Shown piece by piece: positions 12,471 through 21,757 of a DNA stretch of 64,000 nucleotides; positions within the stretch are counted from its first letter, which is position 1, and the number at the start of each line of letters is the position of its first letter. The notes under the pieces are model-generated. The model saw only the letters and a program-made list of their open reading frames with translations, was not told where the DNA came from and did not search any database. The translations under genes were made by a program, and so were the position numbers. The DNA is from Rhodospirillaceae bacterium. GTDB lineage: Bacteria > Pseudomonadota > Alphaproteobacteria > TMED109. The stretch is from the NCBI GenBank assembly GCA_902557845.1, contig CACEBX010000001.1:1-64000 (forward strand). Direction: 5' to 3'.

Positions 12471-13694
12471 ATGAATTTATCAAAAAAAATTTTTTTAGCG
12501 CTTGGAGTTGGTTTTCTCTTTGGCTCACTTTTTAATTACCTAGACCTTTTTCAAAATAAAATATTTTTAGATTTTATAGAAGTACCTGGAAGTATATTTA
12601 TATCCTCACTTAAAATGTTAATAGTCCCTGTAGTATTTTTTTCTATAGTTAGCGGCGTCACTGGACTTAGTAATGTTTCTACTTTGGGCAGGATAGGAAC
12701 TATTTCTGTGTTATTATATTTAATAACTACATGTATAGCTATAACCTTGGCTCTAGTTTTTTCTAATATTATTGACCCTGGAATTAAGAAAAATATAATG
12801 GAAGTAGAAACTTTTATAAAGCAGGAAACCCCTGATTTAAAAAATGTTATTATAAATATTGTACCTAGCAATATATTTAAAGCCTTTTCAGATGCTAATA
12901 TGCTGCAAGTAATTTTCTTTGCTATAATATTTGGTATTACATTGAATTTAATAAGCAAAAAAAACGTTAAATTAAAAGAGGCAATTTTCCAGTTTAATGA
13001 TCTATTTTTAAAAATGATTGAAGTCATAATGTATATTGCACCTTATGGAGTTTTTTTTCTAATATTTAAGACTTTTCTTACTCAAGGTTTCGAAACTATT
13101 TTTGAATTAGGAGAATACTTTTTTACAGTTTTACTAGTATTAATTATTCATTTATTTTTTACTTATGGTGGGCTCTTATTAATATTAGGAAAAATTAATA
13201 TTTTTAAATTTTTTTCTAAGATGAAAAACTCTATGCTGTTTGCCTTTTCCACCTCTAGTAGTGCTGCTACTATACCTATTAATTTGAAAACTGTAGAAGA
13301 AAGTTTGGGAGTGAAAAAATCAGTAGCCTCATTTACGGTTCCATTAGGGGCAACAATAAATATGGATGGCACTGCTATAATGCAAGGAGTAGCTACTGTT
13401 TTTTTAGCTAATACTTATGGAGTTGATCTTAGTTTAGCTGATTTCATGTCAGTTATTTTAGTAGCTACTTTAGCATCAATTGGAACAGCTGGAGTCCCTG
13501 GTGTAGGACTAATAATGCTTACTATGGTATTAAATCAAGTTGGCTTGCCTGCGGAGGGCATAGCATTAATTATTGGCATTGACAGAATTCTAGACATGAC
13601 TAGAACTGCTGTAAATGTTACTGGTGATGCAACTGTATCATGCGTAGTTGCAAAAATTGAAAAAAAGTTAAATTTGCAAAAGCTTAACTCTTAG
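12471..13694 (+). CDS. Dicarboxylate/amino acid:cation symporter (DAACS, GltP/DctA-like)
   Basis: A 407-residue inner-membrane secondary transporter that imports acidic amino acids or C4-dicarboxylates with Na+ or H+. The hairpin-1 serine motif TSSSAATIP (about residue 262), the NMDGT cation-site motif (about 299) and ASIGTAGVPGVGLIML in hairpin 2 are all present, as is the last-helix DRILDMTRTAVNVTGD. An Arg (R in MTRTAVN) is the residue that in characterised members binds acidic side chains. It ends 11 bases inside the convergent sulfurtransferase gene. Confidence 0.92.
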   Translation: MNLSKKIFLALGVGFLFGSLFNYLDLFQNKIFLDFIEVPGSIFISSLKMLIVPVVFFSIVSGVTGLSNVSTLGRIGTISVLLYLITTCIAITLALVFSNIIDPGIKKNIMEVETFIKQETPDLKNVIINIVPSNIFKAFSDANMLQVIFFAIIFGITLNLISKKNVKLKEAIFQFNDLFLKMIEVIMYIAPYGVFFLIFKTFLTQGFETIFELGEYFFTVLLVLIIHLFFTYGGLLLILGKINIFKFFSKMKNSMLFAFSTSSSAATIPINLKTVEESLGVKKSVASFTVPLGATINMDGTAIMQGVATVFLANTYGVDLSLADFMSVILVATLASIGTAGVPGVGLIMLTMVLNQVGLPAEGIALIIGIDRILDMTRTAVNVTGDATVSCVVAKIEKKLNLQKLNS

Positions 13695-14499
13695 TTCTTA
13701 AGTACCACTCTGTCCAAGAGCCATCATAAACACTCCAATTTAAGTTTCCTATAAAAGATAGTGAGAAAGCTATAGAGCAAGCACTTATACCTGAACCACA
13801 AGTACAAATTACTTTATTGTTTTTGAAAATAACTTTTTTTAAAATATTTCTAACCTTGCTTTTTGTTTTAAAAAAACCATTGAGCTCTAATATTGAAGCT
13901 TCTAAATTTTTACTTCCTTCTATATTACCCTTACCTATATTTTTTCTGGGTTCAGGATCTAATTTTAAAAATCTTCTAGCAGGCCTTGCATCTAAAATAG
14001 AATAGTTATTATCTTGCTTTTTTATATATGATAATTCTTCATAGGTTAAATTTAATTTTTTTTTTAACCTACCTACCTTATATTTAGTTTGAGTAATTTT
14101 TTCTAGACCAGATATTATTTTTCCATTAGCAAAAGTCCATGCTTTAAAACCTCCATTTAATATAAATACTTTTTTATGTCCAAAATACTTAAACATCCAC
14201 CAAACTCTAGGAGAACTTAATACACCTTCTCTACAATAAACTACTAATATATCATCTGATTTTACTCCTAAATCAGATACTTTATTTTCAAATATACTGG
14301 CACTTGGAAGCATATGAGGCAAATTAGAACTTGCATCACAAATACCATCGATATCAAAAAAAACTGATTTTGGTATTCTTTTACTTTTATATTCTTTTTT
14401 AGGGTCTCTATCAATATTGGGTAAATACCAAGAAGCATCTAAAATCTTTACATTTTTTCTTTTAATATTTTTTTTTAACCAATGCGCACTTACTAACAT
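13684..14499 (-). CDS. sseA: 3-mercaptopyruvate-type sulfurtransferase (tandem rhodanese)
   Basis: Two rhodanese domains (about residues 1-125 and 145-271). The active loop of the second domain is CGSGISA, with the catalytic Cys, which fits mercaptopyruvate rather than thiosulfate sulfurtransferases. RVWWMFKYFGH and LNGGFKAW are family signatures in the first domain. It transfers sulfur from 3-mercaptopyruvate to thiols or cyanide. The gene starts 2 bases after the cysteine synthase stop, so cysteine formation and sulfur transfer appear coupled at the end of the ABC operon. Confidence 0.9.
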   Translation of the reverse strand: MLVSAHWLKKNIKRKNVKILDASWYLPNIDRDPKKEYKSKRIPKSVFFDIDGICDASSNLPHMLPSASIFENKVSDLGVKSDDILVVYCREGVLSSPRVWWMFKYFGHKKVFILNGGFKAWTFANGKIISGLEKITQTKYKVGRLKKKLNLTYEELSYIKKQDNNYSILDARPARRFLKLDPEPRKNIGKGNIEGSKNLEASILELNGFFKTKSKVRNILKKVIFKNNKVICTCGSGISACSIAFSLSFIGNLNWSVYDGSWTEWYLRTKS

Positions 14500-14501
14500 A
14501 T

Positions 14502-15494
14502 TTATAACCAGTTTGGATAAGTAAGACCCTTAGAAGTCAAATATTCTTTATTAAAAATTTTATTAGAATACCTGCCAGCATAATCACAAAGCACTGTTAC
14601 TATAGTTTTATTAGGACCTAAGTGCCTTGCAAGTTTTATAGCTCCCGCTATATTTATACCGCTACTTGGGCCTAGAAATAAACCTTCTTCTCTAATTAAA
14701 TCATAAATTATATTTAATGCAGATTGATCAGAAATTTTAAAAGCTCCGTCAAACTCTATACCTTCAATATTTTTTGTAATTCTACTTTGTCCTATTCCTT
14801 CAGTAATAGAACTATAAGCTGCTTTAGAATTTCCTTTTCTTATATAAGAATACATACCAGAGCCATAAGGATCAGCACAAAAGATTTTTATATTTTTATT
14901 TTTATGCTTAAGCCCTAAAAAATTACCAGCCAATGTACCTCCCGTACCTATAGAACAAATAAAAGCATCTATTTTTCCTTGAGTTTGTTCCCATATCTCT
15001 CTTGAGGTAGTTTCTATATGAGCCTTTCTGTTCGCAAGATTATCAAATTGATTAGACCAATTTGCATTTTTTTCTTGAGCAATTTTTTTTGATAATTGTA
15101 TGTAATTTTTATTGTCGGTAAACGGCGCTTTCTCAGTTAATACCACTTCTGCTCCTAACTGTTTTAATAATACAATTTTTTCTTGGCTTTGGTCATTTGG
15201 CATAACTATTATTGTTTTATATCCCTTTGCGCTCCCTATTACAGTTAAACCTATTCCTGTGTTGCCTCCTGTTCCTTCAACTATTATTTTATTATTAAGG
15301 TCGTTGTTTTTTTCTAGCTCATTAATTATATATAATGCAGCTCTATCTTTTACTGATTGTCCAGGATTTAAAAATTCTGCTTTTCCTAAAATACTACATT
15401 GGGTTATTTCAGATGCTTTTTTTAATTTAATCAATGGCGTGTTTCCTACTTCATCAGCTATGCTTTCTGAAAAGAAATTTATGCTTCTATCCAT
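14502..15494 (-). CDS. cysK: Cysteine synthase family PLP enzyme
   Basis: O-acetylserine sulfhydrylase family. PLP lysine lies in NPGQSVKDRA (about residue 44), the substrate loop is EGTGGNTGIG, the phosphate-binding loop is GTGGTLAG, and a C-terminal LGPSSGINIAGA holds the PLP-ring serine. I chose the ATG at 15494 (MDRSINFFSE): AAGAG stands before it and it overlaps the permease stop by 8 bases, a translational-coupling arrangement. At about 330 residues it belongs to the longer alphaproteobacterial cysteine synthase group. Cystathionine beta-synthase activity cannot be excluded. Confidence 0.88.
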   Translation of the reverse strand: MDRSINFFSESIADEVGNTPLIKLKKASEITQCSILGKAEFLNPGQSVKDRAALYIINELEKNNDLNNKIIVEGTGGNTGIGLTVIGSAKGYKTIIVMPNDQSQEKIVLLKQLGAEVVLTEKAPFTDNKNYIQLSKKIAQEKNANWSNQFDNLANRKAHIETTSREIWEQTQGKIDAFICSIGTGGTLAGNFLGLKHKNKNIKIFCADPYGSGMYSYIRKGNSKAAYSSITEGIGQSRITKNIEGIEFDGAFKISDQSALNIIYDLIREEGLFLGPSSGINIAGAIKLARHLGPNKTIVTVLCDYAGRYSNKIFNKEYLTSKGLTYPNWL

Positions 15495-16323
15495 TTTTAC
15501 TCTTAGACTTTTTAATTGCATTATTTTGTGGATTATAACCTCTTACAGCTAAAAATAAAAAAATTAAAGTGCAAATTAAGCATACTAGAAAACCATTTAG
15601 GTAAAATTTTCCCAAGCTTGCGGCTCTTACCATTTCTACCCCATATGTAAATGGATTTAATTTTGCTATATGGTAGACATAGAGAGCCCCATTATCGATA
15701 AGTCTCCATAAAGGATATAAAGCTGAAGAGATAAAAAACATAGGGAATATAACAAAATTCATAGTTCCAGCAAAATTTTCTAATTGTTTAATGTATACTG
15801 ATAACAAGAGACCTAATGAGCCTAGCATTAACCCAAATAATACAATAAAGGGGAACGCCAAAAACCAACCCGTAAAACTTGTTAAAAAAGGAGTATAAAT
15901 ATTTACAATAGGCAAACAAATTATTAAAAAACAGTATGCTTGTATTACTGATAGAATAGTGCCAGCAATTAATTTTGATATTAGCATATACCATCTTGGT
16001 AAAGGAACGGTGAGTAAAATTTTCATTACTCCCATTTCTCTATCATACACCATAGATAAAGAAGATTGCATTCCGCTAAATAATAAAACCATTCCCAGCA
16101 AACCAGGCGTAATATACTCAAAGTAATTTATATTTTGAGTAGGATAGAAATTTATTAATGCAGGTTGTATACCTTTAGCAGATCCTACTCCTGCTGCAAA
16201 TACAAACAACCAGAGGGCCGGCCTAACTATAGCTGAAAAAAGTCTTCCTTTTTGATTAGAAAACTTAATAATTTCTCTAATTGATAGTCCTAAAAGGGCT
16301 GCTATATAATGCCTAATTTTCAT
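15487..16323 (-). CDS. PQQ-dehydrogenase-associated ABC-2 type permease (PedC-like)
   Basis: 278 residues with about six membrane spans in an ABC-2 permease pattern: FEYITPGLLGMVLLFSGMQSS, EMGVMKILLTVPLPRWYMLI, and the C-terminal KLNPFTYGVEMVR. The neighbouring ATPase, beta-propeller and binding protein are the standard companions of the TIGR03861 permease found with PQQ-dependent alcohol dehydrogenases. In Pseudomonas putida the corresponding PedA1A2BC system is needed for lanthanide-dependent growth (from memory). ABC-2 permeases usually export, so the transport direction is unclear. It overlaps the preceding gene by 11 bases. Confidence 0.85.
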   Translation of the reverse strand: MKIRHYIAALLGLSIREIIKFSNQKGRLFSAIVRPALWLFVFAAGVGSAKGIQPALINFYPTQNINYFEYITPGLLGMVLLFSGMQSSLSMVYDREMGVMKILLTVPLPRWYMLISKLIAGTILSVIQAYCFLIICLPIVNIYTPFLTSFTGWFLAFPFIVLFGLMLGSLGLLLSVYIKQLENFAGTMNFVIFPMFFISSALYPLWRLIDNGALYVYHIAKLNPFTYGVEMVRAASLGKFYLNGFLVCLICTLIFLFLAVRGYNPQNNAIKKSKSKNG

Positions 16324-17512
16324 AATTATTAATATTACACTCGATTTCTTTTTGAATTATTCCTAGTGTATCTAGGTTATTTTTACTATTTTTAAAGCTC
16401 TCAATAGGTGCGACTTCAGCGACCCAATTATTTGAGGAAACAAGAAGCATAGTTTGCCTTAATTGCTTAGTTTTTTTCCTATAGTTTAAGCTTATTCCTT
16501 TAGATCCGTCGACTTTAAACTCATCACTTAATAAAAAAACTTTTATTATATTTGTATCATTTGACTTAGTTCTTAAAATACTTTCCAAAATACTTTTGAT
16601 AGCTATCCAAGACGCCCAATCTTTTTCATTCATTCTTCTATTAAAACTTCTTTCAAATCTTCCATTAACTTGAGGAGCACCATGCCTCATATAGGACCAG
16701 TGCCAAGCTTTTGGTAATAGTCCAGAGGATCCGACCACAGCCACTGGAGTCATAGTAGAATAGGGCACACCTAAAGCAAACTCTCCATCTATATCTGAAA
16801 TAAATACACTTTTAAACTTTCTTCCTTTTGTTAAAAAAGAAAGATCATTTTTCTCTCTAACCCGAGGATCATTAGAGTTCACAAAATTTTTCTCTTCTAC
16901 TATTTTAACACCAAACTTTTTGGAAGATGCTTTAAATGAAGTACTTGAGTTTTTGTCATCATTTAAGCTTCCTGTTAATAATAAAGTTTTATTCCATTTT
17001 TTTTGTACTAAGAATTGAGCCAAAGCGTCTGTTTTCATCATATCACTAGGGAAAGTGTGATATAAATTGTCTATACATATATCTGTTCTCAATGAATTAT
17101 TTGGATTTGAGATATTGAAAAAAATTACTTGATTTTTAACTTTAATACTACTTTGTAAGTTTCGTAAGATTTTCAAATTCAGATCTAATAAAACAGCATT
17201 GTATTCATTTATTACATCTGATTTAAAAAAGTTTATTAGCTTTTTCTCATCACTATACCTTAAGTGATCGAGAACAATTTGTGTTTTTGTTATTCTTTCA
17301 AATTTTTTTGAGTCAATTACTCCTAACTTAGCACCATCTATGGCTCTATGTTCATTTCTATGACTTGATCTAATATCAACAGGATGTCTTCCCCAATCTG
17401 AATATCTTATATCATCTTTTAAATCAATATATCCTATTTTGAAAATCTTAGTTTCAGCATAAGAAAAAAAATACAGCAATAATAAAGGTAATGTTATAAA
17501 CGTTATTTTCAT
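16313..17512 (-). CDS. PQQ-dehydrogenase-associated periplasmic binding protein (PedB-like)
   Basis: A 399-residue exported protein with signal peptide MKITFITLPLLLLYFFSYAE and a type-I periplasmic-binding fold related to branched-chain amino acid receptors. Stretches such as IGYIDLKDDIRYSDWGR, FPSDMMKTDALAQFL and MRHGAPQVNGRFERSF fit the TIGR03863 (PQQ_ABC_bind) family. The ligand is unknown; in this locus type a lanthanide complex or a PQQ-related compound is proposed. The gene lies 1 base after the beta-propeller gene. Confidence 0.82.
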   Translation of the reverse strand: MKITFITLPLLLLYFFSYAETKIFKIGYIDLKDDIRYSDWGRHPVDIRSSHRNEHRAIDGAKLGVIDSKKFERITKTQIVLDHLRYSDEKKLINFFKSDVINEYNAVLLDLNLKILRNLQSSIKVKNQVIFFNISNPNNSLRTDICIDNLYHTFPSDMMKTDALAQFLVQKKWNKTLLLTGSLNDDKNSSTSFKASSKKFGVKIVEEKNFVNSNDPRVREKNDLSFLTKGRKFKSVFISDIDGEFALGVPYSTMTPVAVVGSSGLLPKAWHWSYMRHGAPQVNGRFERSFNRRMNEKDWASWIAIKSILESILRTKSNDTNIIKVFLLSDEFKVDGSKGISLNYRKKTKQLRQTMLLVSSNNWVAEVAPIESFKNSKNNLDTLGIIQKEIECNINNYEN

Positions 17513-17513
17513 T

Positions 17514-18488
17514 TTATTTCTTGATTCTTACAGAATGGGGAGTTTTGCCAACCGGTATTGCGGAAGTAGAAATTAGCCTTTCTAAATCTATAATAGATAT
17601 GTCATCACTGTTACCATTGGTAACAACTAGTTCTTTTTCATTTCCAGTTATATCTGCACCCCAAACTCTATCCCCTACTAGAATATATTTTCTAACTTCA
17701 TAAGTGTGTGCGTCTACAACTGCAACATGATTAGCGCTACCTAAAGTAACAAATACTATATTTTTCTTTTTAGCGTAGGCAAAATCAACCGGTGTAATTT
17801 GCTGCTCTCTTATTCCTTTAATGGAAAATTTAATAGTTTTTATTAACTCTTGTTTTTCAGTATCTATTATTCCTACAGTTCCGCTTAATTCATTACTAAC
17901 CCAATACTCTTTGCCACTATTAACAAATAACCCTCTTCTTGGCCTATTTCCTACTAATACTTCATTAACGATTTTTTTATTAACAACATCTATTATAAGA
18001 ACTGAACTAGTTCCTTCTGAAGTAACATAAATAAATTTCCCATCAGGTGAAAAGTTTACTCCCTCAGGTTCAACGCCTACATCATTAATGCTTGTTATTA
18101 TTTTTTTATTTTTAAGATCAATTATAGTTAATTGGTTGTCGTCTTCATTAGAGACCGCTATATATTTGTTTTCATGATCTATATCAAAGATTTCTGGATC
18201 ATCCCCTGTTTCTATTTTATCCAAAATTTTAAGCTTTTTTGTATCTATTTCTAAAATATGGTTTTCTTCACTTACAACTACGTAAAGCTTAGAAAAATCA
18301 TTATTAAACTTTATGTCTCTAGGCCTACCTCCTGTATCTATTGTTTTAATAATTTTTTTTGATACCTTGTCTAAAACCACTAGGGTATCACTATTCTCAT
18401 TGCTCACAAAAATATAATTTGCTTGTGAAAATAATGAAACAAAAAATAAATTTATACAGATTACTATTACCATGTATAGATTGTGCAT
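17514..18488 (-). CDS. PQQ-dehydrogenase-associated YVTN beta-propeller protein (PedA2-like)
   Basis: About 324 residues. The ATG at 18488 is preceded by GAGGA at a good distance, and is preferred to an upstream TTG. A signal peptide (MHNLYMVIVICINLFFVSLF) leads into seven or so YVTN-type blades, for example VVLDKVSKKIIKTIDTGGRP, IKFNNDFSKLYVVVSE and INFSPDGKFIYVTSE-like repeats. This matches the TIGR03866 family. It is a periplasmic protein of unknown biochemical role, always beside the PQQ-associated ABC ATPase, whose stop codon lies 1 base upstream. Confidence 0.87.
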   Translation of the reverse strand: MHNLYMVIVICINLFFVSLFSQANYIFVSNENSDTLVVLDKVSKKIIKTIDTGGRPRDIKFNNDFSKLYVVVSEENHILEIDTKKLKILDKIETGDDPEIFDIDHENKYIAVSNEDDNQLTIIDLKNKKIITSINDVGVEPEGVNFSPDGKFIYVTSEGTSSVLIIDVVNKKIVNEVLVGNRPRRGLFVNSGKEYWVSNELSGTVGIIDTEKQELIKTIKFSIKGIREQQITPVDFAYAKKKNIVFVTLGSANHVAVVDAHTYEVRKYILVGDRVWGADITGNEKELVVTNGNSDDISIIDLERLISTSAIPVGKTPHSVRIKK

Positions 18489-18489
18489 A

Positions 18490-19209
18490 TTATTTTTCCT
18501 CAACTAATTTTAAAAAAGCTTTAGCTAATTTATTTTCTTTTGCCATACTTAAAATTTCTTTTTTAGACCCTATAGCTATTATTTCACCTTTATCTAAAAT
18601 TATAATTTTATCAGCTTTTTCTGCTTCGTCCACTAAATGAGTGGTCCATAAAACAGATAAATTTTTTGAACTCTTAAGATTTAATATCTTCTTTAATAGG
18701 TCTGCTCTACTTCTCGGGTCAAGCCCGACTGTAGGTTCATCCATAAGAAGCATTTTAGGTTCATGTAACAAAGACCTGATTAATTCTACTTTTCGTCTTT
18801 CTCCACCAGATAAAGTTCTAACTTTTTTATTTATTTTTTTTTCTAAACCATTTTCATTTAGTTCTTTTTCAATTATCTTTTTTAAACTTGCAACTCTCAG
18901 TCCATGCAATCTAGCATGAAATAATAGATTTTCTTTCACAGTCAACTCTAGATCAATAGTAGGCTGCTGAAATACAACTCCTAGATTTTTTAATGCACCA
19001 ATACTCTGACTAGCAATGTTATTTCCATTAATAACACAGCTTCCACTATCTGCTCTTACCAACCCTGTAATAATTGAGAACAATGTTGATTTTCCTGCTC
19101 CATTTGGTCCTAATAGCACGACTAATTGATTAGGCTTTAATTTTAAACAAATATTATTTAAAGCTAAAAAAGATCCGTAATACTTTTTAATATTATTTAT
19201 TTCTAACAT
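18490..19209 (-). CDS. PQQ-dehydrogenase-associated ABC transporter ATPase (PedA1-like)
   Basis: A complete ABC ATPase: Walker A GPNGAGKST (about residue 33), Q-loop VVFQQPT, signature LSGGERRKVELIRSL, Walker B MLLMDEPTVGLD and switch His in WTTHLVDEAEKAD. I prefer the ATG at 19209 (MLEINNIKKYY) because AAGAGAAG stands before it; an in-frame start at 19227 would overlap the previous gene. It energises the ABC-2 permease PedC-like protein. Family assignment (TIGR03864) comes from the gene set rather than from this sequence alone. Confidence 0.87.
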   Translation of the reverse strand: MLEINNIKKYYGSFLALNNICLKLKPNQLVVLLGPNGAGKSTLFSIITGLVRADSGSCVINGNNIASQSIGALKNLGVVFQQPTIDLELTVKENLLFHARLHGLRVASLKKIIEKELNENGLEKKINKKVRTLSGGERRKVELIRSLLHEPKMLLMDEPTVGLDPRSRADLLKKILNLKSSKNLSVLWTTHLVDEAEKADKIIILDKGEIIAIGSKKEILSMAKENKLAKAFLKLVEEK

Positions 19210-19219
19210 AAACTTCTCT

Positions 19220-19987
19220 TTAAGCATTAGTGTCTACTCCTTTTAATATCTGTTTGTTTCTACTAATTATACTTTTCCTCAAAGACTCTATTTTTCTATC
19301 ATCTAACTTCCTTGGTCTTCTAATACCTATTTTTTTATCCATTAAAACTCTTGAAGGAGCTGAGGAAAGAAAAATAATTCTATCCGCTAAGTAAATTGCT
19401 TCTCTTAAATCATGCGTCACAAAAATTATTGTTGTTGGCTCATTAGTCCATAAACTAATCAACATATCCCTGAGTTTATTTGCCATTTCATCATCAAGAG
19501 AAACAAAAGGTTCATCTAATAAAAATAATTCAGGTTGACTTGAATATGATCTTGCTAGAGCTACGCGACGTTGCATGCCCCCGGATAATTGGCTAGGGTA
19601 ATAACCAAGAAATTCTTCTAAACCCATTATATTTAAAATCTCTCTAGCTCTATTAGATTCTTTTTGTTCCTTAGATAAAACTACTTCTACATTTTCTAAT
19701 ACTGTAAGCCATGGAAGCAATCTAGGATTCTGAAACATATAAGCTGTTCTAATATCTTTCAGTTGTTTTTTTTTATCAAAAATAATTTTACCATTTAGAC
19801 TTTTGTCTAAACCTGATATTAAATTTAGAAGGGTAGTTTTTCCACATCCTGATGGACCTATAATAGAACAAAACTCTCCTTTTGAAATATTTAAATTAAG
19901 CTTGCCAATAGCAAAGTGCTTTTTTCTTTTGTTAGTATTAGTTTGGAAAACTTTTGATTTAATATTTATTTTTATGCTCGTAGACAT
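19220..19987 (-). CDS. NitT/TauT-family ABC importer ATPase (SsuB/TauB-like)
   Basis: A complete ATPase with GPSGCGKTTL, AYMFQNPRLLPWLTVLENV, LSGGMQRRVALARS, LFLLDEPFVSLD and FVTHDLREAIYLADR, all in the nitrate/sulfonate/taurine family style. The likely start is the ATG at 19987, which overlaps the permease stop as TAATG and has GGAG before it. It powers the adjacent SsuC-like permease. It is the third gene of the operon, 10 bases ahead of the Ped-type ATPase. Confidence 0.9.
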   Translation of the reverse strand: MSTSIKINIKSKVFQTNTNKRKKHFAIGKLNLNISKGEFCSIIGPSGCGKTTLLNLISGLDKSLNGKIIFDKKKQLKDIRTAYMFQNPRLLPWLTVLENVEVVLSKEQKESNRAREILNIMGLEEFLGYYPSQLSGGMQRRVALARSYSSQPELFLLDEPFVSLDDEMANKLRDMLISLWTNEPTTIIFVTHDLREAIYLADRIIFLSSAPSRVLMDKKIGIRRPRKLDDRKIESLRKSIISRNKQILKGVDTNA

Positions 19988-20739
19988 TAGGTTCTCCATC
20001 TTCTAGAATAATTATCTAGTGGTTTAAAAAATAATAATTCTAAACCTATCATTACTATTACAAATGCTATTGTATAAGCTAATATAGATTTAATATCAAA
20101 AAACTGAAAAAACTCATGTATTTTAAATCCTACTCCATTGCTTCTACCTAAAAGCTCAACTACTAAAACTATCTTCCATATCAAAGAAATACCACCTCTT
20201 GCTGCGGCAATTATATATGGAAAAAGTTGAGGTATATAAAATATAAAAAATTTTTTTACATTAGATACTTTATAGACAAATGCTACTTGTAGAAGCCTTT
20301 TATCTATAGACTTAGCTCCTTCTCTAATTGTAACTACAACGTTTGGAATTTTATTTAAGCTTACAGCTACAATAGCAGCTACTTCGGTTAGCCCAAACCA
20401 GATATAAGATAATATAATTAATACAAGGGCTGGTATATTTAAAAACAATATATTCCATCCATCAAAAAAAGAGTCAAAGTTTTTATAATTGCCCATAAGC
20501 ATCCCAATTAATATTCCAACTATCATTGCTATAAAAAAAGAAACGAAGACTCTATATAAAGTCATACCTAAATGAAAAATCAGTTCACCATCTAAAACTT
20601 CTGCAAATAAAGTTTTTCCTATACTTAAAAGAGAAGGAAATGTCGCAGGATTAGAAAAGTTAGACAATAGCTCCCATAAAATAAATAGTAAAATAAAAGA
20701 AAACCCTTTAATTGAACTTAAATACTTTCTAATTGGCAT
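19987..20739 (-). CDS. NitT/TauT-family ABC importer permease (SsuC/TauC-like)
   Basis: 250 residues with about six membrane segments (LFILWELLSNF near the start) and the EAA loop ATPase-contact region EGAKSIDKRLLQVAFVYKVS. RGGISLIWKIVLVVELLG is typical of SsuC/TauC permeases. It overlaps the binding-protein gene by 11 bases and the ATPase by a TAATG junction. The transported solute is set by the binding protein and is not known. Confidence 0.9.
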   Translation of the reverse strand: MPIRKYLSSIKGFSFILLFILWELLSNFSNPATFPSLLSIGKTLFAEVLDGELIFHLGMTLYRVFVSFFIAMIVGILIGMLMGNYKNFDSFFDGWNILFLNIPALVLIILSYIWFGLTEVAAIVAVSLNKIPNVVVTIREGAKSIDKRLLQVAFVYKVSNVKKFFIFYIPQLFPYIIAAARGGISLIWKIVLVVELLGRSNGVGFKIHEFFQFFDIKSILAYTIAFVIVMIGLELLFFKPLDNYSRRWRT

Positions 20740-21697
20740 TCCAAATAGTTCCTTCCGCTAAATGTTTCCCTTCTCCGACTAATTTCTTACCACCAATTTC
20801 CTTTAAAATATCATATGCTTTTATAATATTGCTATTAAGTGTTTCTATATCGCTTTTGGGAATTCCTTTTCTAAAACCATCTCTAATTTTGATAAGCATT
20901 TCCTTATCTTTTGCTCCAGTCATCTGCATAATTCTATTCCACTCTTCATCAGACTCTTCTAAAATTTTTCTTGATAAATTTGTTGCCTTTAAAAATTTTT
21001 TTACTAAATCTTGGTCTCTTGTCAAAAGATCCTCTTTGAAAACATATCCTATAAGAGGCAGATCGCCTTTAATTCCCAAAATAGGAAGGATATCTTCTAT
21101 ATTAATAATACTCTTAAATCCTTGAGCCTCTAGTCTAGCATTATAATTCCAATAGTTAATCCCTGCATCTAAATCCCCTGTTTTTAATAAACCATTAATT
21201 AAAGGGGGGGCAGCAAATGAAGTTTTAAAATAGCTAATAGCTTCCTTTCCATATTTTTTTTTAAAAAATGCTCTAAAAAATAACCAAGATTTATCAATAG
21301 CCCCTCCTGCTACTCCAACTTTTTTATTTTTTAAATCATCTAATTCATTAATTTCACTATTATTTTTTATAATCAAGCCTCCTGCAGCAGTAGAATATGG
21401 CAAGAATGAAACTTTACTGCCGTTATATCTTTGCTTGCTTACCCAAATCCAATCAGTAACAAAAATATCTACTGAACCAGATAAAAAAGCAATAGCAGCT
21501 GCATCCTTATTTGTCATTTGAACTCTTTTTAAATTTAATTGAAACTGCTTATGCAAACCATGATGCTCTAAAACATCTAACTCCCAATTTACTGATCCAA
21601 ATTTCAATACAGCAATTTTAAGCTCTTTTGAAAAGATAGGGAAACTTAAGATAGCAAAAAGGCATAAAAGAAATATATGTTTATAGTACTTAGTCAT
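20729..21697 (-). CDS. NitT/TauT-family ABC substrate-binding protein
   Basis: 322 residues with a signal peptide (MTKYYKHIFLLCLFAILSFP) and an NMT1/SsuA-type fold. Typical blocks are AIAFLSGSVDIFVTDWIWVS, STAAGGLIIKNNSEINELDD and KNKKVGVAGGAIDKSW. It has no close resemblance I can name to taurine, nitrate or thiamine-precursor receptors. As first gene of the nine-gene unit it may deliver a ligand connected with the PQQ/lanthanide genes, or an organosulfur compound used by the downstream cysK and sseA. Both ideas are inference. Confidence 0.85.
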   Translation of the reverse strand: MTKYYKHIFLLCLFAILSFPIFSKELKIAVLKFGSVNWELDVLEHHGLHKQFQLNLKRVQMTNKDAAAIAFLSGSVDIFVTDWIWVSKQRYNGSKVSFLPYSTAAGGLIIKNNSEINELDDLKNKKVGVAGGAIDKSWLFFRAFFKKKYGKEAISYFKTSFAAPPLINGLLKTGDLDAGINYWNYNARLEAQGFKSIINIEDILPILGIKGDLPLIGYVFKEDLLTRDQDLVKKFLKATNLSRKILEESDEEWNRIMQMTGAKDKEMLIKIRDGFRKGIPKSDIETLNSNIIKAYDILKEIGGKKLVGEGKHLAEGTIWNAN

Positions 21698-21707
21698 AAA
21701 TTAAAAT

Positions 21708-21735
21708 ATTATCTCATGAATTTATATTTTGTGAA
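21708..21735 (-). promoter_or_regulatory. Candidate sigma-70 promoter of the nine-gene ABC operon
   Basis: On the minus strand TTCACA (21735-21730), a 16-base spacer and GATAAT (21713-21708) each match five of six consensus bases. The predicted start of transcription would lie only a few bases before the ATG at 21697, implying an almost leaderless message, which weakens the call. No other promoter candidate is visible in the short gap to asnB. Confidence 0.35.
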
Positions 21736-21757
21736 AAGTTTCTTGTAAAATATTTTT

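Follow-up and report, generated by a model that had tools for sequence, protein, structure and literature searches.

In Methylorubrum extorquens AM1, the Lut cluster (lutA-lutI) includes genes for LutA, LutB, LutE and LutF, which act as the periplasmic binding component, an exported protein, the ATPase and the membrane component of an ATP-binding cassette (ABC) transporter, respectively, and mutants in this transporter build up La3+ not in the cytoplasm but in the periplasm (PMC7391723). In Pseudomonas putida KT2440, PedA1A2BC comprises the same four families, and its ABC mutant fails specifically in lanthanum-dependent growth at low lanthanum (PMC6839425). A further M. extorquens protein, PqqT, binds pyrroloquinoline quinone (PQQ) with a dissociation constant (Kd) of 50 nM (PMC12828617, PMC12124388), and a role in the retention and recapture of leaked PQQ has been proposed for it (PMC12124388). 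Here, we examine a nine-gene operon in the first 64,000 nucleotides (hereafter ‘the window’) of contig CACEBX010000001.1, from an uncultured marine Rhodospirillaceae bacterium (assembly GCA_902557845.1), in which homologues of PqqT and of the Lut/Ped transporter are joined. With a probability of about 0.65, we read it as an operon that supplies cofactors to alcohol dehydrogenases dependent on lanthanide and PQQ, and that carries two housekeeping sulfur genes at its tail. As such, the operon brings known parts together in compact form and does not amount to a new sulfur-metal system.

The genes are lettered A to I in operon order from the 5' end (Table 1). G000 denotes the source genome and f1 its GTDB family; other f labels are likewise GTDB families, g labels are genera of f1, and G and L numbers designate the genomes and loci compared. 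A preliminary description, made from the DNA letters and their open reading frames, had placed nine genes at 13684-21697; both these frames, all on the minus strand at exactly these positions, and the families given to them were confirmed by the open reading frame list and by family profile searches. Its proposal of one operon is borne out by the layout, since the genes are collinear, nearly gapless and on the same strand. The junctions had been described as overlaps or gaps of 1-10 bases, and the near-gapless spacing holds, though the sizes are slightly off: from A to I, overlaps of 11, 13, 8 and 14 bases are followed by a gap of 1, overlaps of 11 and 35, and a gap of 2. The 35-base overlap at the start of cysK (H) becomes 8 if the next ATG of cysK is the start, and gene E begins with TTG or, alternatively, with an ATG lying 15 bases into the frame. 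Internal promoters would find little space between the nine genes which, judged by layout alone, are very likely one transcript.

Table 1. Genes of the operon and adjoining features, in window coordinates (aa, amino acids; E, expectation value; bit scores are set against the curated cut-off of each family).
Feature	Positions	Strand	Basis
A: PqqT-type periplasmic binding protein, predicted PQQ-binding, 322 aa	20729..21697	-	PqqT structures by sequence, profile and fold
B: inner-membrane permease of PqqT-type importer, 250 aa	19987..20739	-	BPD_transp_1; always adjoins A in relatives
C: ATPase of PqqT-type importer, 259 aa	19220..19999	-	ABC_tran; best to SaoA/SsuB/NrtCD-type ATPases, all below cut-off
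D: LutE/PedB-type ATPase (PQQ_ABC_ATP), 245 aa	18490..19227	-	TIGR03864 E 1e-86, 290 vs cut-off 302 bits
E: LutB/PedA2-type beta-propeller protein (PQQ_ABC_repeats), 329 aa	17514..18503	-	TIGR03866 330 bits, above cut-off
F: LutA/PedA1-type binding protein (PQQ_ABC_bind), 399 aa	16313..17512	-	TIGR03863 E 1e-95, 320 vs cut-off 414 bits
G: LutF/PedC-type ABC-2 permease, 278 aa	15487..16323	-	TIGR03861 293 bits, above cut-off
H: cysteine synthase A (CysK, PRK10717 type), 339 aa	14502..15521	-	NF007989 465 bits, above cut-off
I: 3-mercaptopyruvate-type sulfurtransferase (SseA), 271 aa	13684..14499	-	PRK11493 198 vs cut-off 250 bits; PDB mercaptopyruvate sulfurtransferase (MST)/rhodanese E ~1e-54
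Candidate operon promoter, TTCACA-16-GATAAT, extended -10, in the 60-base space before A	21698..21757	-	Promoter-like site
Sodium:dicarboxylate-type symporter	12471..13694	+	
LysR/ModE-like winged-helix protein, 122 aa	11659..12027	-	

The identity of the importer follows from several comparisons of its binding protein, A. Searched against the PDB by sequence, A matches the PqqT entries 9b1u, 9b1v and 9ooz at E 4e-54, with the next match at 5e-4, and a profile of the A family (12 rows, the PqqT sequence among them) matches the PqqT entries at E 4e-117, with the next at 7e-6. An AlphaFold model of A with a mean predicted local distance difference test score of 93, made from an alignment that did not contain PqqT, placed the three PqqT entries first in a fold search (E about 1e-32, template modelling score 0.91-0.93), followed by SsuA at 3e-15. 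By name, these entries are PqqT with PQQ, PqqT Y161W with PQQ, and PqqT with PQQ and Gd3+. PqqT Tyr161 aligns with a Tyr in A, and D135, K136, W138 and W183 of A are invariant across 22 diverse homologues, forming in part a D-K-x-W motif that A shares with PqqT of M. extorquens AM1. By sequence and predicted fold, A is thus a PqqT homologue, nearer PqqT than other NMT1-family proteins, and its sequence relatives indicate that A-B-C is very probably a PQQ importer with PQQ as its ligand. A differs from PqqT of M. extorquens in its setting, as here the permease and ATPase of its importer and then the Lut genes come immediately after it.

The middle four genes represent all four subunit families of the Lut/Ped transporter together (TIGR03861, 03863, 03864, 03866), two above the curated cut-off and two below it, the latter at E <1e-85. 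These family profiles bear out the earlier view of a PedA1A2BC-type set: as judged from them, D-E-F-G is the PedA1A2BC/LutABEF lanthanide set, with F, E, D and G corresponding to LutA, LutB, LutE and LutF. F has no PDB relative by sequence. Set against the M. extorquens Lut cluster, the operon is without lanM, lutH, lutC, lutD and lutG and differs in gene order, with the PqqT importer in front and cysK-sseA behind. Set against PedA1A2BC of P. putida KT2440, it has no PQQ dehydrogenase alongside.

The source genome carries pqqB, pqqC, pqqD and pqqE on contig C2, so the organism very probably makes PQQ; PQQ auxotrophy with scavenging was rejected on this ground. No PQQ dehydrogenase was found in the 72%-complete G000 assembly, from which the whole 11-kb neighbourhood where congeners carry one is missing, and in G002 all of this neighbourhood but some 300 bases at either end is missing. 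Because the neighbourhood is not in the assembly, the absence is uninformative on the organism; the earlier remark that no PQQ dehydrogenase is present holds within the window and does not extend to the organism. Another role for the operon, suggested by the missing enzyme, was likewise rejected, as neither G000 nor G002 has this neighbourhood assembled, and G001 and G003 do carry the gene. The dehydrogenase of the congener G001 is closest, at E about 1e-109, to the PDB entries 6zcv and 6zcw, which we take to be PedH. Two residues past the catalytic Asp it carries a further Asp (YDFDGVN), as do 6zcv/6zcw and XoxF, whereas the calcium-type 1flg has Ser at this position, and all f1 dehydrogenases examined carry this lanthanide D-x-D Asp. 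A PedH-like dehydrogenase with the lanthanide motif in congeners, together with pqqBCDE in the source genome, upholds the proposed link to lanthanide-dependent PQQ enzymes. A comparable case is the methylotrophy island of TMED127/Methylaequorales, with lutABEFCG and PQQ synthesis (PMC12542740). Both groups are streamlined marine alphaproteobacteria with Lut and PQQ genes; in the island, Lut lies beside xoxF and pqq genes, whereas here pqqBCDE are on another contig and the congener dehydrogenase is PedH-like.

The importer and the Lut genes are coupled well beyond this locus. Profile searches for A and for LutA (TIGR03863) across 385 Alphaproteobacteria found A in 45 genomes, with one match each, LutA in 55, and both in 43; the two lie <=20 kb apart in 25 genomes from 16 families, and in G123 and G231 A-B-C sits between pqqBCDE and the Lut genes. 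Since the coupling is genome-wide (43/45), the importer and Lut form a general pairing for PQQ and lanthanide and not a peculiarity of the window. Random association in relatives, named in the preliminary description as evidence against a combined system, is therefore not what is seen for the importer and the Ped genes, while it is seen for cysK-sseA.

Within f1, the PQQ_ABC_bind gene is present in 24 of 28 genomes, the other four being incomplete assemblies (55-82%), and the order of A-B-C-D-E-F-G and I is kept down to about 45-50% identity. All nine genes occur in order in genera g1, g3, g7 and g8; in g2 and g5, G is followed by I, without H at the locus, and in G004, G011 and G017 cysK is on another contig. 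The sister family f125 shows A-B-C-D-E-F-G-H-alaX-I-metC at one locus (L165, G151) and, at another (L168), A-B-C-D-(stub of G)-H-alaX-I with the same convergent symporter, E, F and G being on another contig. Conserved to this depth in four genera and the sister family, the nine-gene order is therefore not due to chance, and because a tree of A places f125 beside f1 (support 0.98), the simplest reading is that it arose once.

In a cofactor-supply operon of this kind, A would, to judge from its sequence, capture periplasmic PQQ, whether leaked by the cell or coming from seawater, and B-C would move it inward across the inner membrane. F and E, with D and G, would carry lanthanide inward across the same membrane, by analogy with their homologues, and both halves would serve a PedH-like periplasmic dehydrogenase encoded elsewhere. 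For the source organism, we infer lanthanide as the Lut cargo, PQQ as the ligand, and the direction of transport. A number of points weigh against this reading. D and F score below the NCBI curated cut-offs, though they stand beside above-cut-off E and G, and A and PqqT are only about 34% identical. The hypergeometric P for the co-occurrence of A and LutA, about 2e-43, is uncorrected for shared ancestry. It is odd that a cell which makes PQQ, and whose PQQ enzymes are periplasmic, should bring PQQ into the cytoplasm, and PedC/LutF (G) is an ABC-2, exporter-like permease. Finally, I is kept in the operon where H is lost, hinting at some tie.

The nature of G also invites the alternative that D-G does not import lanthanide and instead exports some other cargo, such as PQQ, a lanthanophore or a periplasmic maturation factor for PQQ enzymes, the reported lanthanide phenotypes being indirect. 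G is of the ABC-2/DrrB type and D is DrrA-like, folds that are better known from exporters; moreover, the NCBI family name refers to PQQ alcohol dehydrogenases and not to metals, and the genomes that carry lut-type genes have a wide variety of PQQ dehydrogenases. Nevertheless, we regard export as unlikely, because binding proteins usually mark importers, because M. extorquens lut mutants accumulate their La3+ in the periplasm and not the cytoplasm (PMC7391723), and because the defect of the P. putida mutant is confined to lanthanum-dependent growth at low lanthanum (PMC6839425).

A second alternative keeps import and merges the two halves, with the PqqT-type importer and Lut acting together on a lanthanide-PQQ complex, or sharing the LutE ATPase, so that PQQ would carry lanthanide into the cytoplasm. 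In families f1, f125, f78, f131, f162 and f30, D comes directly after C on the same strand, and a PqqT crystal with both PQQ and Gd3+ exists. Furthermore, G056, a genome rated 100% complete, has A without LutA: A-B-C-D is kept (L198:10765-14083), with the LutE ATPase above cut-off and a PQQ dehydrogenase about 3.5 kb away, and no LutA and no above-cut-off PedC/LutF was found in this genome. However, the Kd of wild-type PqqT for La3+ is no better than micromolar (PMC12828617), a value far above the picomolar levels at which lanthanide occurs in seawater, and in many families A-B-C and Lut are on opposite strands or far apart. We therefore hold such joint action to be distinctly improbable; improbable, too, is its fullest form, one joint PQQ and lanthanide import machine with a shared LutE and with PQQ perhaps as the lanthanide carrier, that would feed a novel cytoplasmic use of PQQ or lanthanide in a cell already making its own PQQ.

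That A-B-C instead imports sulfonate, taurine, nitrate or a thiamine precursor, and has no more than an operon in common with the Lut genes, would accord with the NMT1/SsuA-family matches of A in Pfam and NCBIfam and with the sulfur genes close by. These matches in the generic libraries are weak, that to SsuA_fam scoring 40 bits against a cut-off of 163.5. SsuA and TauA trail far behind PqqT by fold and were not matched by A below E 0.01 in the sequence search against the PDB, and A is tightly coupled with LutA genome-wide, all of which makes such an importer very improbable. An SsuA/TauA sulfonate or thiamine-precursor assignment was rejected on the SsuA_fam score, the sequence search against the PDB and the fold search, and the NitT/TauT label first attached to the importer has to give way, since the binding protein is a PqqT homologue and not of the sulfonate/taurine type.

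The sulfur genes have a history of their own. In a survey of 190 genomes, in which a pair was defined as cysK followed, on one strand and within 3.5 kb, by sseA, cysK of the H type was found in 112, sseA in 110, and both in 99. The pair is present in 81 of these 99, within 200 bases in 46 and with space for a single intervening gene, such as alaX, in 27. LutA occurs in 19 of the 81 pair-bearing genomes, with the pair within 20 kb of it in three (two f1, one f125) and elsewhere in 16. The gap sizes suggest that alaX lies between cysK and sseA in about 27 other alphaproteobacterial genomes, and in f125 (G151, L165:8626-12737) the order cysK-alaX-sseA-metC places an alanyl-tRNA editing gene between two sulfur-metabolism genes. 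H and I have the order and strand of this alphaproteobacterial cysK-(alaX)-sseA housekeeping pair, with alaX still between them in f125; unlike the usual pair, they stand here directly behind pedC/lutF, and alaX is gone. H is the only match above the CysK cut-off in the G000 assembly, the other being a 459-aa protein below cut-off, probably of the cystathionine beta-synthase type, and H is thus probably needed for cysteine anyway.

H and I are probably housekeeping genes attached to the operon, and we infer that they lack a functional tie to it; the old pair would have taken up its place behind the Lut genes in the ancestor shared by f1 and its sister family. Because I, whose active-site loop reads CGSGISA, stays where H leaves, a residual function of I in the operon is possible. 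In the P. putida ped cluster, the rhodanese-domain protein PP_2666 adjoins pedC (PMC12997753); it is predicted to be non-cytoplasmic, whereas I, a mercaptopyruvate sulfurtransferase of two domains, shows no evident signal peptide. The proposal of the preliminary description that the importer takes up a sulfur-containing metal chelator, the sulfur of which CysK and the sulfurtransferase recycle, or that a metal-thiol step matures the dehydrogenase, could draw on the nine-gene operon conserved over f1 and its sister family, on the retention of I without H and on PP_2666 beside pedC, and is nonetheless scarcely credible given that A is a PqqT homologue, that cysK-sseA is a widespread independent pair normally away from Lut genes, that cysK is dispensable from the locus (g2, g5) and that H is probably required for cysteine in any case. 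The chelator model was rejected after the class-wide adjacency survey; from the interpretation first offered, the operon, the Ped set and the lanthanide/PQQ link are retained, and the sulfur chelator and the metal-thiol step are dropped.

Several neighbouring and distant genes deserve mention. An asparagine synthase gene on the same strand lies 60 bases upstream of A. In the promoter scan, sites such as that listed before A were no commoner than in shuffled sequence, and the terminator scan at the locus did no better than shuffles. The symporter converges on the end of I with an 11-base tail-to-tail overlap and recurs at this position in most small-genome genera of f1 and in f125 (L168), not in g7. 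The LysR/ModE-like gene is found two genes beyond the end of the operon; similar-sized genes recur at the same position in related genera, and a metal- or cofactor-responsive regulator is possible. Exactly two TonB-dependent receptors were found in the source genome, side by side on contig C6 (L194:4868-10989), and most small-genome relatives also have two. One is BtuB-like; the other, of 825 aa, has no clear relative, as searches gave no PDB relative besides spurious antibody matches and no LutH or PqqU call, and it is a candidate, the only one visible, for carrying lanthanide or PQQ across the outer membrane. Finally, a MotA/TolQ/ExbB-like gene with partners of ~200 aa without Pfam matches (L092:6919-9308 in G001; L198:8744-10768 in G056) adjoins a lanthanide-type PQQ dehydrogenase in two distant families, and once also lies beside PqqT-ABC-LutE. 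Some of the partners share a D(V/L)DLWVQ-P-like stretch, and no described function was found for this gene set near PQQ dehydrogenases.

Each part of the operon is known, and its novelty lies in a new arrangement of known modules, although the proximity of pqqT and lut may have been remarked before. What would have been annotated as a ‘taurine/nitrate importer’ becomes a probable PQQ importer, and a tempting, unsupported link between lanthanide use and sulfur metabolism is removed. Across many families of Alphaproteobacteria, among them streamlined marine ones in waters with picomolar lanthanide, the importer and the lanthanide transporter travel together, and their pairing yields a clear testable prediction about the means by which such bacteria hold on to both halves of the lanthanide-PQQ cofactor.

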